Program-made: the position numbers and the translations under genes | NCBI GenBank assembly: GCA_031002005.1 | Contig: CM061914.1 | Location: 14,246,148 to 14,310,147 of the forward strand | DNA length: 64,000 nucleotides | Source of the DNA: Vandiemenella viatica | Taxonomy: Eukaryota; Arthropoda; Insecta; Orthoptera; Morabidae | Direction: 5' to 3' | Notes under the pieces: model-generated | What the model was told of the DNA's origin: nothing | The model's database searches: none | The model's input: the letters and a program-made list of their open reading frames with translations, nothing else | In this document: positions 9,300-21,010 of the stretch, piece after piece | How positions within the stretch are numbered: the stretch's first letter is position 1 | How the letters are laid out: every line of letters starts with the position of its first letter

Positions 9300-10294
9300 T
9301 TTACCTTGCCGAAGACCTTAATTTTTAAAACGATATGTCATTTATCGATTTCGGCTAGGTAATAACAAATAAAGAAAATAAACACGTTGTATAAATAATA
9401 TTGATACTTTTGCCCTCTATAGGTCGAATTCCAAAAAATTCCTTTTATAAAACATGGTGTGACCAAACCAGCCACCTTGGTCTTTAAAATGATAACTCAT
9501 TTATCGATTTCGCTTAGTTATCAAGCGAGGTAAAAAAAAAGTTTTGAGAAATGATGATATTTTTGCCCCTTAAGGGTTGAATTTTTTTCCTTAAAATATT
9601 ATGTGACCATAGAGGATAATTTAATATTTAAATTGATACCTCATTTATTGAAATAAATAGCTAGTGACAGAAAACTGCGTTGTAAAAATATTAATACTTT
9701 TGCCCTTTAAGGTTAGAATATTTTTAAATTTTTTCTTAAAATGTGGTAATGGAACTAAAGATTACGAACACCTCAATCTTTCAAACGATACCTCATTTAT
9801 CAATTTTGTTTAATTGTCAATGGAGATATATGGCTCGAGATAACCAAAGACGCATTTTAGAAAAATTGCCATTTTTTTACCTTTAAGGCTCGAATTACGA
9901 AAAATTCCTTTTTAAAATATAATATTACCATGGCGGAGACCCTAGTCTTTAATATTACACCTCATTTATCTATATCGGCTAGATATCAAGGGAGATAAAT
10001 AGCTCGTGACACAAAAATGTGTTGTACAACCATTTACACTTTTTCCCTTTAAGGATTGAATTCCAAAAACTTCTTTCCTAAAATATGATGTCACCAAAGC
10101 TGAGAAAATATTCCTCTTACTTGATTTATTGATTTTGGATACATATCCAGGGAGATAAGTGTCTCGAGACACAAAAAACGCATTTTAGAAAAATTGACAC
10201 TTTTGCCCTTTATGGGTCGAATTACGAAAAATTCCTTTCTTAAAATACCGTATAATGTTACCACGGCGGAGACCTTATTCTTTAATATGATACC
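9300..10294. repeat. diverged satellite array, left part
   Basis: The motif (c)tcatttatc, followed by a cgattt-like block, recurs at about 9336, 9497, 9650, 9792, 9961 and 10123, giving a period of roughly 140-170 bp. Each unit also carries a ttgccctttaaggtcgaatt block and an aaaattccttttaaaatatgatgt-like block. From 9830 onward two unit types alternate, one with 'ctcgtgacac' and one with 'cgagacacaaaaaacgcatt', implying a dimer of about 330 bp. The array continues at 20265 after the Gypsy insertion. Confidence 0.85.
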
Positions 10295-10432
10295 TGTAGC
10301 AAATCCACTATCCCCGAATGTATATTTAGATGTATATATATTATAATATTAAAATAAATGTATGAATATGCATTGTAAGCAATTGTATTTATGCTCACGG
10401 AAATCACAGACGATGCTAAGCATGTAGAAAAG

Positions 10433-10478
10433 GGTAGTATCATGGAGGAAGGAATATTCCTTCCTCCATGGGTAGTAT
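10433..10478. mobile_element. P-like excision scar 1 (30-bp palindrome)
   Basis: A perfect 30-bp palindrome at 10441-10470 has half-site CATGGAGGAAGGAAT. It is flanked by the 8-bp duplication ggtagtat (10433-10440, 10471-10478). The half-site is identical to the first 15 bases of the P-like element at 18053. The 3' LTR lacks the insertion (gggtagtataag at 19835). Confidence 0.88.
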
Positions 10479-10494
10479 AAGTGATGCTAACATC

Positions 10495-10538
10495 TATGGT
10501 TCCATGGAGGAAGGAATTCCTTCCTCCATGTATGGTTC
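10495..10538. mobile_element. P-like excision scar 2 (28-bp palindrome)
   Basis: A perfect 28-bp palindrome at 10503-10530 has half-site CATGGAGGAAGGAA. It is flanked by the 8-bp duplication tatggttc (10495-10502, 10531-10538). The 3' LTR holds the corresponding empty site, tatggttttgag, at about 19860. Confidence 0.88.
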
Positions 10539-10594
10539 AGAGTGTGTGCAGAGATGTGGAGTGTCTCTGGCCGTGAACGGATGTGAGAGGTCGT

Positions 10595-11944
10595 CAGGGT
10601 TGCCAACTCAAAATTCTTTTTACCCCTAAAACTTAAGCCAAAACCCCTAAAATCACCACAATTAAGTGGAAAAACCCCTAAAAAATAAATACCATATTTT
10701 TATTAGTAATATTTTATTTATAAATTATTCAATATTTATAACATTTCGTTTTATTCTGATTGTACAGAGTTTTTGAGATCATACATTTAGACTTAACATT
10801 TTAATAGAAGGATTAATTAAATGTTATGAAAGATCTTTTTTAGTTATAAATTATTCAGTATTTCTAACATCACGTCGTTTTGTTCTAATTGTACAGAGTT
10901 TTTGAAATGTAATTTATTATGTTTGACTTGAGATGTAGCAATCTCTGGTTGCAAATCAGCAACCATTTTCAATATTGCTAAATTGTCTGGAAGCCATTTT
11001 AGGTTCTGTACTTTTAGACAACATAAAAAGTTCTTACATCTTTCTCTGACATCTAATAAGTCATTTGCTTCAATTTTTTTATATGTTTTGAAAATCATTG
11101 ATGTTGTATGCATTGTATGTTCCTGGAAATTCACAATCTAAAAATTTCTCCAATTGTGAAGGTACAAGACGTTTTAGCAAGTTTTTGTACAGTAAAAATA
11201 AATCTTCAAATAATTTAGTGTGTTCAGCATTGTCACTTTGAAAAAGTATATTTAATTTTATCACACTTTTCAATTAGTTTTTCAGAAATAACAAAAAAGC
11301 TTTGAATGGTAGTCTCCTCATGATATCATGAAGCTGTTCTGCCATGTAACATTTGTCTTGAGTCTTTGCAAATAAAAAAAGCAACTTTAATTCGTCCCAC
11401 TACTCTAATATTGTGTTAACTGCTTGAAAGCGGGCGAGCCATCGGGTTCCGCTTAGTCCTTGAATTTTTTGAGGATCTCTGTTAACATTCATGGTCTCAA
11501 TGATGATTAATAAAGTATTTGTCGACACACTACAGCATTTACACAACAGCACAGTTAATTGGACCAGAAATAACTAAACAATAACGGCTACATTGTTGCA
11601 CGTTGGTTGTTGCCGCAACAACCAAAGTATTTCCATAGGTAACCAAAACAATTATATGTCTCTGGTAAACATTAAATACTGAGTCTATACTTTTTTGAAA
11701 ATGAATATTCTATTCTGTGATCAGAAAAATATATTCAGTCATAAAGAAGTCCGAATTGTCAGTAACGAGGATCTGTACGAGGATTGGACGTCGCTATTTA
11801 ACTCAACAAATAAATACAAGAAATCATAAAGTATCAAAAAATACCCCTAAACATTCCCCTAAAATTATAAAGCCCCTAAAAAAATCCCATCACGCGTGTA
11901 TACCCCCTAAATTTAGGGGGAAAACCCCCAAGTTGGCACCCATG
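10595..11944 (-). mobile_element. hAT element nested in the 5' LTR
   Basis: The flanking 8-bp duplication is gaggtcgt (10587-10594, 11945-11952). Inverted ends are CAGGGTTGCCAACT and (right, complemented) CATGGGTGCCAACT. The 3' LTR has the empty site gaggtcatgcgcc at about 19915. Both ends carry repeated CCCCTAAA motifs, three or more near 10620-10685 and five near 11840-11930, all in the same orientation. The interior encodes a broken transposase on the minus strand. Confidence 0.93.
10840..11480 (-). pseudogene. hAT transposase fragment
   Basis: Read on the minus strand from about 11460, the translation gives GLSGTRWLARFQAVNTILE, CYMAEQLHDIMRRLPFKAF, then LFEDLFLLYKNLLKRLVPS (frame 11079-11273) and MVADLQPEIATSQ (frame 10844-11134). 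The TRW...CYxAxxL...FL order matches the middle of hAT transposases of the KIAA1586/SCAND3-like group. At least one stop and a frameshift separate the blocks. The N-terminal zinc finger and the C-terminal dimerisation region are missing, so the element is an internally deleted derivative. Confidence 0.65.
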
Positions 11945-17915: not shown

Positions 17916-18231
17916 TGTAGCATATCCACTATCCCCGAATGTATATTTAGATGTATATATATTATAATATTAAAATAAATGTATGAAACTGCATTGTAAG
18001 CAATTGTATTTATGCTCACGGAAATCACAGACGATACTAAGCATGTAAAAAACATGGAGGAAGGAATTATATGGAGGAGAAGTGACGTTAAATCGGTGAA
18101 GCAAGCACTAAACTCTTCCGCATGGTGGCAGCACCGGCAGCGACCATATGGCGCTTCCCAACAATTAAGGTGTTCACATTGTGGTAGATGCAGTGATTAT
18201 TTCATTTAGTATTGTGTATAAGTGTTTAAAA

Positions 18232-18302
18232 ATGCCAGCTTGTGTTGCGTACGGTTGCACAAATAGGCCAGACAGGAAAGAACCTGGAATATCATTTCAT
18301 AA
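18232..18302 (+). pseudogene. THAP-domain first exon of P-like transposase
   Basis: ATG at 18232 opens MPACVAYGCTNRPDRKEP and then GISFHK, the start of a THAP zinc finger: two Cys four residues apart, then the SFH block holding the zinc His. A perfect splice donor GTAAGT follows at 18303-18308. P-type transposases use an N-terminal THAP domain to bind element DNA. No later exon is recognisable before the right end, so only the first exon survives. Confidence 0.8.
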
Positions 18303-18885
18303 GTAAGTTGAATTGTAATTATCGTTGTTGAAGTGAGCGGTAGACACCGCAAACTTTGCAGCACGTCTATAAATATTTAGTCATAGGTCTCAATGGGATG
18401 ATTTGTTCTCAAATTTTTCTTGGTGTAGTGTAGAAAATCAGCAAACTTGCTATTTTGCACATAATAGACTAGCATTATTTTTTAACGAGTGTTTAAAATG
18501 AGATTTAAAGGGGCGTGTTTTACTTCGCGATTCAGTGAATTTACTATTACGATTTCTTTCGTCACGTTGCTGATTATACTGACAATGGATGATGAAATTA
18601 ACTGTTATGTGAGAAGCTGTGAGTTTTATTAATTTTTTAAATAGCTTTTCAGGCCATTGACTTATGTTATTTTTAAAGCTTCATATAAGACTTGTTTCTG
18701 TTTGTAAATACGTCTATACCTATTTTTACCGATTTTGAAATCTTTCTCATCTATTTATGTCGAAACAGGTTCATGCAGAAATAAAAATGGGCTTCATAAA
18801 TAAAGAAGTTATTGGCCTTTGAACAAAATCAATTTGGGGAATGTGTTTCTAATTTAGTCTCTTTTTTTTTTTACAACATTCTCCA

Positions 18886-18905
18886 CCCCCCCCCCCCCCC
18901 CCCCC
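18886..18905. repeat. poly-C tract
   Basis: A run of about 20 C after a poly-T run, inside the P-like element. Confidence 0.85.
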
Positions 18906-19240
18906 GTATCTAAATCTAACTGAGAGATAATTTTTTTACAATTGTCCTAATAAGTAGGGCTGTGAAATTAGACAACACATCTTGATCAAGAGAATGTTCA
19001 TTAAGGTGACTGAATAAACATTTTATTTCTGGTACCAGCCTACAAAATGTCTGGGTTGCTCATCCCTAGAGTGGATCCTCTTACTTTTTTTCTGGTCTAG
19101 GACACATTTCAGACTAACCACAAGTGGTAGTAATAAAACTGAAATATCCATTCTGCATGTCAACCATGTAATCATTGTGGCTTTGACAGAATTAATTTTT
19201 GGTCCAGCCTGCATCCAAACCTAAACCCTCAATTTGGATG

Positions 19241-19630
19241 TTGTATATCCCCCAAACTAAGCAAGATATCGAAAACATTTATTCCTTATTATCGAGTTTT
19301 TTCGTCGTGTTACATAAGAATCCATCATTAAATTTGACTTTTGCGAAATTTTTCTTCTGTATTTCAACTCAAGACACCTCACTTTTGAGACAGTATATCT
19401 CGAGAACTAGGTGAAATATCGAAAAATTTTACTCTTTATTTTTTATTTGTCTCGTCTTTTTAAATAAAAATTCATCACAAAATTTGACTTTGAATAATTT
19501 TTTCTTCTGAATTTCAACCAAAACCATTTCACATTTGAGACAGAATATCTCGAAAACTAAGCAGGATATCAAAAAATTTTATTCTTCATTTTTTATTTGT
19601 ATCATCGAGTTACATAATAATCCATCACCA
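19241..19630. repeat. tandem repeat, 150-bp period, about 2.6 units
   Basis: The phrase tatatc(t/c)...aacta(a/g)g...atatcgaaaa recurs at 19244, 19394 and 19544, exactly 150 bases apart. Each copy is followed by a tttattt-rich block and tacataa(g/t)aatccatca-like ends. The units lie inside the P-like element. Confidence 0.8.
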
Positions 19631-19814
19631 GATTGCGGCGTCACGTTTATCCTAGAGTCCCCTTGAGGTGTTTGTACATATTCCCCGTGTTTGTTGGGAA
19701 GCGGTCAAGCCCCCACCACTCCGGCCATGTCCCCCCACTCCTCCGCCGGCCTGCTTCACTCCCATGCGTGGTAAAGGTCTCTTGCGTCGTCTCCATATTA
19801 TTCCTTCCTCCATG

Positions 19815-19834
19815 GTAAAAAACATGGTAAAAAA
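19815..19834. mobile_element. P-like excision scar 3 (CATG between duplications)
   Basis: Directly after the P-like element the sequence reads gtaaaaaa-catg-gtaaaaaa. With the copy left of the element, the 8-bp target occurs three times. CATG equals the first four bases of the element's ends. Confidence 0.8.
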
Positions 19835-20264
19835 GGGTAGTATAAGTGATGTTAACATCTATGGTTTTGAGTGTGTGCAGAGGTGTGGACAGTCTCTGGC
19901 TGTGAGCGGGTGTGAGAGGTCATGCGCCAAAGTCGTGCCGGCGATTTTATATTTTGTATTATGCCAGATGAATCAGTGATTGTTTCTTAATGTACAGAAC
20001 GAGTGTATTTTCAATTGTAGTTTTGTGCCTCGTGTAAAAATAAAGTTGTTAAGAGCAGTAATCGGGCTTTAATCAATACAATAGCAAATTATTTATTGTA
20101 TGAAGTTAAGACGTCTTATTTGGATAGTAAGAACCTTTTAAAGGAACTAAGTAGCTCCTCTGTCCGCGTACGTGGGTTGAATGGCGGTATTTAAGGGCCA
20201 AACCGTCTAAAAACCTGTGGACTTTAATTAGTAATACAAATTAATAATATAGAGGAGTATTACA

Positions 20265-21010
20265 TACCTCATTTATCTATATCAGTTAGACATTAAGGGA
20301 GATAAATCGCTCGTGACAGAAAAATGTGTTATAGAAAAATTTATACTTTTTTCCTTTAATGGTTGAATTCCAAAAACATTCTTTCTTAAAACATGATGTC
20401 ACAAAGCTGAGACATTACTCCTCATAATCCTACTTCATTTAGCGATTTTGGTTAGATATCCAGGGAGATAAATGGTTCGAGATACAAAAAACGCATTTTA
20501 GAAAAATTGACATTTTTGCACTTTAAGAATCAAATTACGAAATATTCCTTTCTTAAAATATAATGTTACCATGGCAGAGACCTTATTCTTTAATATGATA
20601 CCTCAATTACCTATATCGGTTTGATAGCGAGGGAGATGAATATCTCGTGACACAAAAAAATATTGTTACTTTTGCACTTTAAGGGTCGAATTCAGAAAAA
20701 TTTCTGTCTTAATATATGACGTCACTAAAGCGGAGATCTTAATCTTTAAAATGATACTTCATTAAACGATTTCAGATAGGTATCCAGGGAAATAAATGAC
20801 TCGTAACACATAAAACAGAGTTTTAGAAATATTGACATTTTTGCCCTTTAAGGGTCGAATTCAGAAAAATTCATTTCTTAAAATATGATGTTACCAAAGT
20901 GGAGACCATATGCTTTAAAATGACACCTCATTCGTTGATTTTGGTTAAATATGAAGGAAGATACAGGCATGTGACAAAAAAATACCTTATAGAAATAATA
21001 TATACGATAT
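20265..21010. repeat. diverged satellite array, right part
   Basis: It continues the array at 9300 with unit anchors at about 20266, 20434, 20602, 20757 and 20926. The alternating unit types (cgtgacag at 20309, cgagataca at 20477, cgtgacac at 20646) keep the phase of the left part across the Gypsy insertion. Confidence 0.85.

Follow-up and report, generated by a model that had tools for sequence, protein, structure and literature searches.

Excision of the P element leaves 3' tails of 17 nt in Rad51-deficient Drosophila melanogaster. In the accessible part of that report, 14 isolates read acccagac-CATGATGAAATAAC(AT)GTTATTTCATCATG-acccagac, a perfect 30-bp palindrome, and 5 isolates carried one of 32 bp; junctions of this genotype number 68 in the figure legend and 66 by the sum of the table rows (PMC2895639). 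The 17-nt stagger is called unusually long in the accessible part of a review (PMC7776569). The excision mechanism is already known from Drosophila, and the family described here is a further member.

Vandiemenella viatica, the source of the window (the whole stretch of 64,000 nucleotides analysed here), resembles Drosophila, as far as the accessible part of PMC2895639 goes, in the intact 8-bp duplications with up to 17 nt of each terminal inverted repeat (TIR), in palindromes of 30 and 32 bp formed via AT or TA pairing, in junctions containing added bases, and in joints that lie deeper where the microhomology is longer. The two cases differ in that the Drosophila junctions come from a single construct excised in the laboratory, in flies deficient in Rad51, whereas the source genome holds hundreds of natural sites with another TIR (PMC2895639, same part). 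Zebrafish Pdre2 / THAP9 is likewise a P-type element with its transposase outside Drosophila, and its excision was shown in cells; it differs in its larger deletions and one-end events, and the string "palindrom" appears nowhere in the main text, the part accessible to us (PMC10983969). The P elements and P-MITEs of Anopheles gambiae are similar in being P-type with short non-autonomous relatives, but the terms footprint, palindrom, empty site and solo are found nowhere in the accessible text (PMC1562414).

Results

The original prediction placed two palindromes, of 30 and 28 bp and each between perfect 8-bp duplications, in the 5' long terminal repeat (LTR) of a retroelement, and this was confirmed to the base. 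The features are as follows, "scar" standing for a predicted excision scar:

10433 to 10440, + strand: left 8-bp target duplication of scar 1, GGTAGTAT; single copy in 20 of 20 fetched LTR copies
10441 to 10470, no strand: scar 1, perfect 30-bp palindrome, centre AATATT; would fit best two 17-nt tails with common ATAT
10471 to 10478, + strand: right duplication of scar 1, GGTAGTAT
10495 to 10502, + strand: left 8-bp target duplication of scar 2, TATGGTTC
10503 to 10530, no strand: scar 2, perfect 28-bp palindrome, centre AATT
10531 to 10538, + strand: right duplication of scar 2, TATGGTTC

Perfect palindromes elsewhere in the window reach at most 18 bp, and among all palindromes of at least 8 bp in the whole window these two alone are flanked by perfect 8-bp duplications. 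Their half-site CATGGAGGAAGGAA occurs six times in the window against 0 expected from shuffles: four of these copies lie in the palindromes and the other two form the ends of a 1,762-bp element in the 3' LTR (18053-19814), in agreement with the earlier claim that the half-site equals the end of a P-like element there. A search of viral contigs for the palindrome gave no match, and the window contained no Rfam or tRNA features.

The integrase reading frame of the host retroelement matches rve and Integrase_H2C2, domains from which we read the element as probably Gypsy-like; its best named protein matches are from insects, at 30-40% identity. Copies of the LTR were sought in the genome (294 candidates, 40 scored matches, 20 fetched, the window's own LTRs not among them). 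All 20 contained GGTAGTAT once and TATGGTT once, the TIR being absent from the roughly 333 bases read, and 19 of the 20 had the exact single empty site GTAAAAAA. The empty sites claimed for the 3' LTR were also found, with one copy of each target there, as in the 20 other copies. Because both the fetched copies and the 3' LTR have empty sites, the palindromes are later arrivals in the LTR. A chance origin, or inheritance within the LTR family, is as close to negligible as any reading weighed here: the partner 3' LTR and all 20 fetched copies are devoid of the palindromes, the reversed-pattern control of the genome search described below gave 0, and we found no point in its favour.

Other features of the retroelement were noted. 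The 5' LTR contains an insertion of 1,350 bp (10595-11944), starting with CAGGGTTGCCAACT, ending with AGTTGGCACCCATG and flanked by copies of GAGGTCGT, which looks like a putative hAT-type element. Diverged repeat units, many at a spacing of about 156-169 bp, lie on both sides of the retroelement (about 9300-10295 and 20260-20960), given which the latter appears to sit in a tandem array. Divergence between the two LTRs (10295-10592 vs. 17916-19921) was uneven, with 5 of 137 positions at the start and 6 of 52 in the middle, and 100% identity over the 300 bases displayed further on; gene conversion is a possible source of this unevenness.

The 3' LTR contains the P-like element, a third candidate scar and the empty sites of the first two:

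18045 to 18052, + strand: left target duplication of the P-like element, GTAAAAAA
18053 to 19814, + strand: P-like element, 1,762 bp, putative internally deleted relative of the transposase-encoding element L134
18053 to 18076, + strand: left TIR of the P-like element, CATGGAGGAAGGAATTATATGGAG
18232 to 18303, + strand: THAP-like first exon MPACVAYGCTNRPDRKEPGISFHK, 24 aa; a near-identical exon lies 5' of the L134 transposase reading frame
19791 to 19814, - strand: right TIR of the P-like element, CATGGAGGAAGGAATAATATGGAG as read on the - strand
19815 to 19822, + strand: right target duplication of the P-like element, GTAAAAAA
19823 to 19826, no strand: scar 3, CATG, putative 4-bp remnant of a second event at the same target
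19827 to 19834, + strand: third GTAAAAAA copy; the single-copy empty site is exact in 19 of 20 fetched LTR copies
19836 to 19843, + strand: empty site of scar 1, GGTAGTAT once; also single in 20 of 20 LTR copies
19860 to 19867, + strand: empty site of scar 2, TATGGTTT once; the 20 of 20 fetched LTR copies are also empty

The TIR of the P-like element is 24 bp long with one mismatch and reads CATGGAGGAAGGAATWATATGGAG; the 8-bp duplications flanking the element are GTAAAAAA. The first exon resembles, in our own reading, the start of a THAP domain; a Pfam search with its 24 residues gave no match, even at E 10. Scar 3, which the original prediction had overlooked, adjoins the element at 19815-19834 and reads GTAAAAAA-CATG-GTAAAAAA. 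The resulting order, GTAAAAAA-element-GTAAAAAA-CATG-GTAAAAAA, would correspond to two events at one target, one of them leaving 4 bp. Inserts of 4-59 bp bounded by CATG between perfect 8-bp duplications numbered 8 vs. 0 for each of eight other palindromic tetramers, in 59 pieces of 194,884 bases that, except for the window, had been picked for the TIR and in some cases overlap.

The first 14 bases of the TIR occurred 21,966 times (10,970 + 10,996) in the 3.72-Gb genome, and the reversed pattern 5 + 10 times. One genomic copy, L134, has the TIR at its start, is 98% identical to the window element over the first 699 bp, and contains nearly the same THAP-like first exon followed by a 944-aa reading frame. 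This frame carries Tnp_P_element, TNP-like_RNaseH_N, TNP-like_GBD, TNP-like_RNaseH_C and THAP9_C, and matches the structure of Drosophila P transposase (PDB 6p5a) with E 5e-30. Since L134 shares TIR, 699 bp and exon with it and carries a P-type reading frame, the window element belongs with a P-transposase element, of which it is an internally deleted relative; the link to the TIR rests on the left end of L134, its right end lying outside the stretch fetched. The family displays traits of the P superfamily, namely an 8-bp target duplication, the transposase domains (P helix-turn-helix, split RNase H and GTP-binding) and the TIR on a transposase element.

A genome search with the GTP-binding domain alone returned 564 candidates, of which 150 are scored matches; these include at least one other group (L133) lacking a link to this TIR. 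This second P transposase group (L133, 2630-5017) has a 796-aa reading frame and numerous equally scoring copies; the 7.6 kb fetched contained no convincing TIR accompanied by an 8-bp duplication, and the replicate test in a second family failed. L009 and L021, whose ends lie 5.6 and 5.5 kb apart, were discarded as transposase carriers, their reading frames being read as LINE-type. In L010 and L011, one P-like element lies within the TIR of another (target ATATGGAG or ATGGAGAC), resulting in stacked ends; L010 was rejected as a scar, being a nested TIR.

Inverted copies of the 14-base end lying 0-30 bases apart were found at 487 sites in the genome (reversed-pattern control, 0). Spacings of 7-36 bases (35-64 bp in total) gave 37 matches; as 33 of these are of 58 bp or below, at least 454 of the 487 close pairs are 28-34 bp long, a figure that, like all exact counts here, requires 14 intact bases per side and misses scars trimmed more deeply. 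Among the 37 longer matches, two of which overlap at one place, 18 have an inner CATG, 16 have extra or AT-rich bases and 3 retain, on one side, 28-30 nt of repeat; a TIR remainder of 23 nt on a side is also present in one of the 18 with inner CATG. The inner CATG probably marks a second or nested scar, and several of the longer matches read, by eye, as scar, 8 bp, scar. The source-genome contigs C7, C8, C4537 and C7729 are of near-equal size (388,957,591-388,957,675), as if longer chromosomes had been split at a fixed size.

The junctions fell into recurrent forms, each with 0 matches in the reversed control. Sampled TIRs ended in GGAAATA (37), GGAATAT (18), GGAATTA (8), GGAATAA (6) or one of three other tips found once each, and 26 further sampled hits were without a recognisable rest of the TIR. 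Variant GGAATAT was represented by 30-bp joints (centre AATATT) at 112 sites, 32-bp joints (AATATATT) at 22 and 34-bp joints at 3, and variant GGAAATA by 32-bp joints (AAATATTT) at 63, 30-bp joints (AAATTT) at 15 and 34-bp joints at 8. The 28-bp form of GGAATTA, via AATT, occupied 64 sites, and the 31-bp TTA joint of the pair GGAATTA/GGAATAA 88 places, both strands of this non-palindrome being counted. Sites of 33-34 bp of any sequence numbered 29. The first 50 sites of the list hold 13 junction sequences when orientation is disregarded. Scars whose two sides are unequal, 24-28 bp in length (L005, L007, L015, L049, L056 and L057, the duplication of L007 having one mismatch), would fit trimming of one side.

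These lengths would follow from annealed 17-nt tails of the four repeat variants. With 17 nt left per end, GGAATAT tips would pair via ATAT, giving 30 bp; GGAAATA tips via TA (32 bp) or AT (30 bp); GGAATTA with GGAATAA via TTA (31 bp), and GGAATTA with itself via AATT (28 bp). The pairing through AATT and ATAT tips that had been proposed from the window also fits, the corresponding forms occupying 64 and 112 sites, respectively. The 32-bp GGAAATATTTCC form was searched as the model of 17-nt tails required, the reasoning being written down after the count, and the 31-bp form was first noticed among the listed close pairs and counted afterwards. Scar 1 of the window fits best with an origin from a different TIR subfamily than the one to which the present 3' LTR element belongs.

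Among the first 50 sites listed, taken by contig order and not by random draw, those explained with no added bases number 8, 26, 44, 49 and 50 for tail limits of 14, 15, 16, 17 and 18 nt, respectively. Because an AT tract occupies positions 18-20 of the repeat, the limit is not fixable at exactly 17 nt: our own data give 16-18 nt, and 17 nt is reached with knowledge of Drosophila added. Longer ends would have made the six-base ATATAT the best match, with 34 bp (GGAAATA) or 32 bp (GGAATAT) dominant, whereas 8 vs. 78 and 22 vs. 112 sites were observed. The single-stranded ends of about 17 nt that the original prediction ascribed to Drosophila P agree with the 17-nt 3' tails in the accessible part of PMC2895639. 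The ranking of joints differs: in the same part of that report AT, 1 nt short of the tip, exceeds the TA tip 14 to 5, whereas here TA exceeds AT 63 to 15 in GGAAATA.

Target duplications were evaluated in 71 exact palindromes with flanks, the first listed, comprising 50 30-bp sites, 20 28-bp sites and, in addition, the 28-bp site of the window. Perfect 8-bp duplications flanked 54, rising to 63 within 1 mismatch and 67 within 2, vs. a mean of 1.05 and a maximum of 6 within 1 mismatch for shuffled flank pairs. Among the 30-bp sites read (50 of 112, the window's included), 36 duplications were perfect, 9 had one mismatch, 4 had two and 1 site was without duplication; among the 28-bp sites read (20 of 64), 17 were perfect and 3 were not, one of these shifted by a base. 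Four of the 71 had no duplication within 2 mismatches, one of them base-shifted. The 54 perfect duplications are 53 different 8-mers. Their strand-averaged motif is G T T N N A A C, in which averaging forces the symmetry and within-site pairing is weak (0.17-0.43).

L065 and L066 have both flanks in common and represent one event among the 71. The flanks of L061, L077, L099, L113, L117, L119 and L128 gave short matches to other scar flanks; these look like mostly TIR pieces within 55 bp of the scar, as if elements return to the same spots. An asymmetric 28-bp scar inside another repeat was found in four copies with small differences and flanks in common (L005, L015, L040 and L050), which represent copies of one scar or one target multiplied passively with the host repeat. 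A scar within this repeat family could be dated.

The earlier expectation, that lengths would peak at 2 x 14-17 bp and targets would vary, agrees with the at least 454 of 487 sites at 28-34 bp and with 53 different 8-mers among 54. The same note had named, as evidence against excision, palindromes at many loci as a mobile unit of fixed length; the many loci were found and the fixed length was not, lengths being varied and some forms asymmetric.

Discussion

The palindromes are almost certainly P-type excision scars mended by end joining, with no mobile unit of fixed length behind them; the length spectrum, the varied duplications and the pairing of tip variants support this reading, which was that of the original prediction. 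We infer the following order of events. P-type transposons would have entered the 5' LTR after integration of the retroelement, duplicating 8 bp each time. A P-type transposase would then have excised each of them, cutting the inner strand about 17 nt inside the terminal repeat and leaving on each chromosome end some 17 nt of repeat as a single-stranded 3' tail, as Drosophila P and the length limit found here suggest. Host end joining, the presumed repair pathway, would have paired the tails through short matches located at the tips or close to them, namely ATAT in the 30-bp palindrome and AATT or ATT in the 28-bp one. After trimming, filling and sealing, two repeat tips would remain as a palindrome, with the 8-bp duplications intact on either side.

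The alternative already raised from the window is that tiny elements, reduced to their two terminal repeats, were moved as such by P transposase. Identical copies at scattered sites (112, 64 and 63 of the 30-, 28- and 32-bp forms) and the varied 8-bp duplications at the 30- and 28-bp sites with flanks read would be expected of such elements. Their lengths and sequences vary, however, with asymmetric and inserted-base forms among them, and the forms track four TIR tip variants and their microhomologies, in place of the one fixed-length sequence of a MITE. Moreover, 14-15 bp per end is far below the minimum of 138 and 216 bp of terminal sequence that Drosophila P needs to move, or the approximately 100 bp per end that may suffice for Anopheles P-MITEs, according to the accessible text of PMC1562414. 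We consequently reject this alternative as very improbable.

Internal deletion of whole elements by abortive gap repair, with only the terminal repeats left by chance, has a still smaller probability. Longer deleted elements do exist, such as the 1,762-bp one of the window, and three matches retain 28-30 nt of repeat on one side; but with a repeat of 23-24 bp, 18-24 nt per side should often remain, whereas at least 454 of 487 sites are of 34 bp or less and just 3 of the 37 longer matches, plus one nested, retain at least 21 nt on a side.

The 17-nt stagger of P transposase rests, to our knowledge, on Drosophila biochemistry. A genome-wide natural record of P excision scars outside Drosophila was not found by title or abstract in a literature search whose reach excluded most subscription journals, older P-element footprint papers included. 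In the genome studied here, a tail limit near 17 nt is readable from sequence alone, the outcomes of germline end joining being recorded in at least 454 scars. Such palindromes could be mistaken for MITEs or hairpins in repeat annotation. Lying between duplications, they mark former element sites, so that past activity becomes measurable beyond the present copies. Quite probably, hundreds of germline repairs of double-strand breaks with chemically defined ends are archived naturally in this genome. On this reading, the staggered P cut of about 17 nt would hold outside Drosophila, the microhomology of the tips would have chosen the joint, and new elements would insert again at the same 8-bp targets, next to old scars, as the 3' LTR of the window exemplifies.
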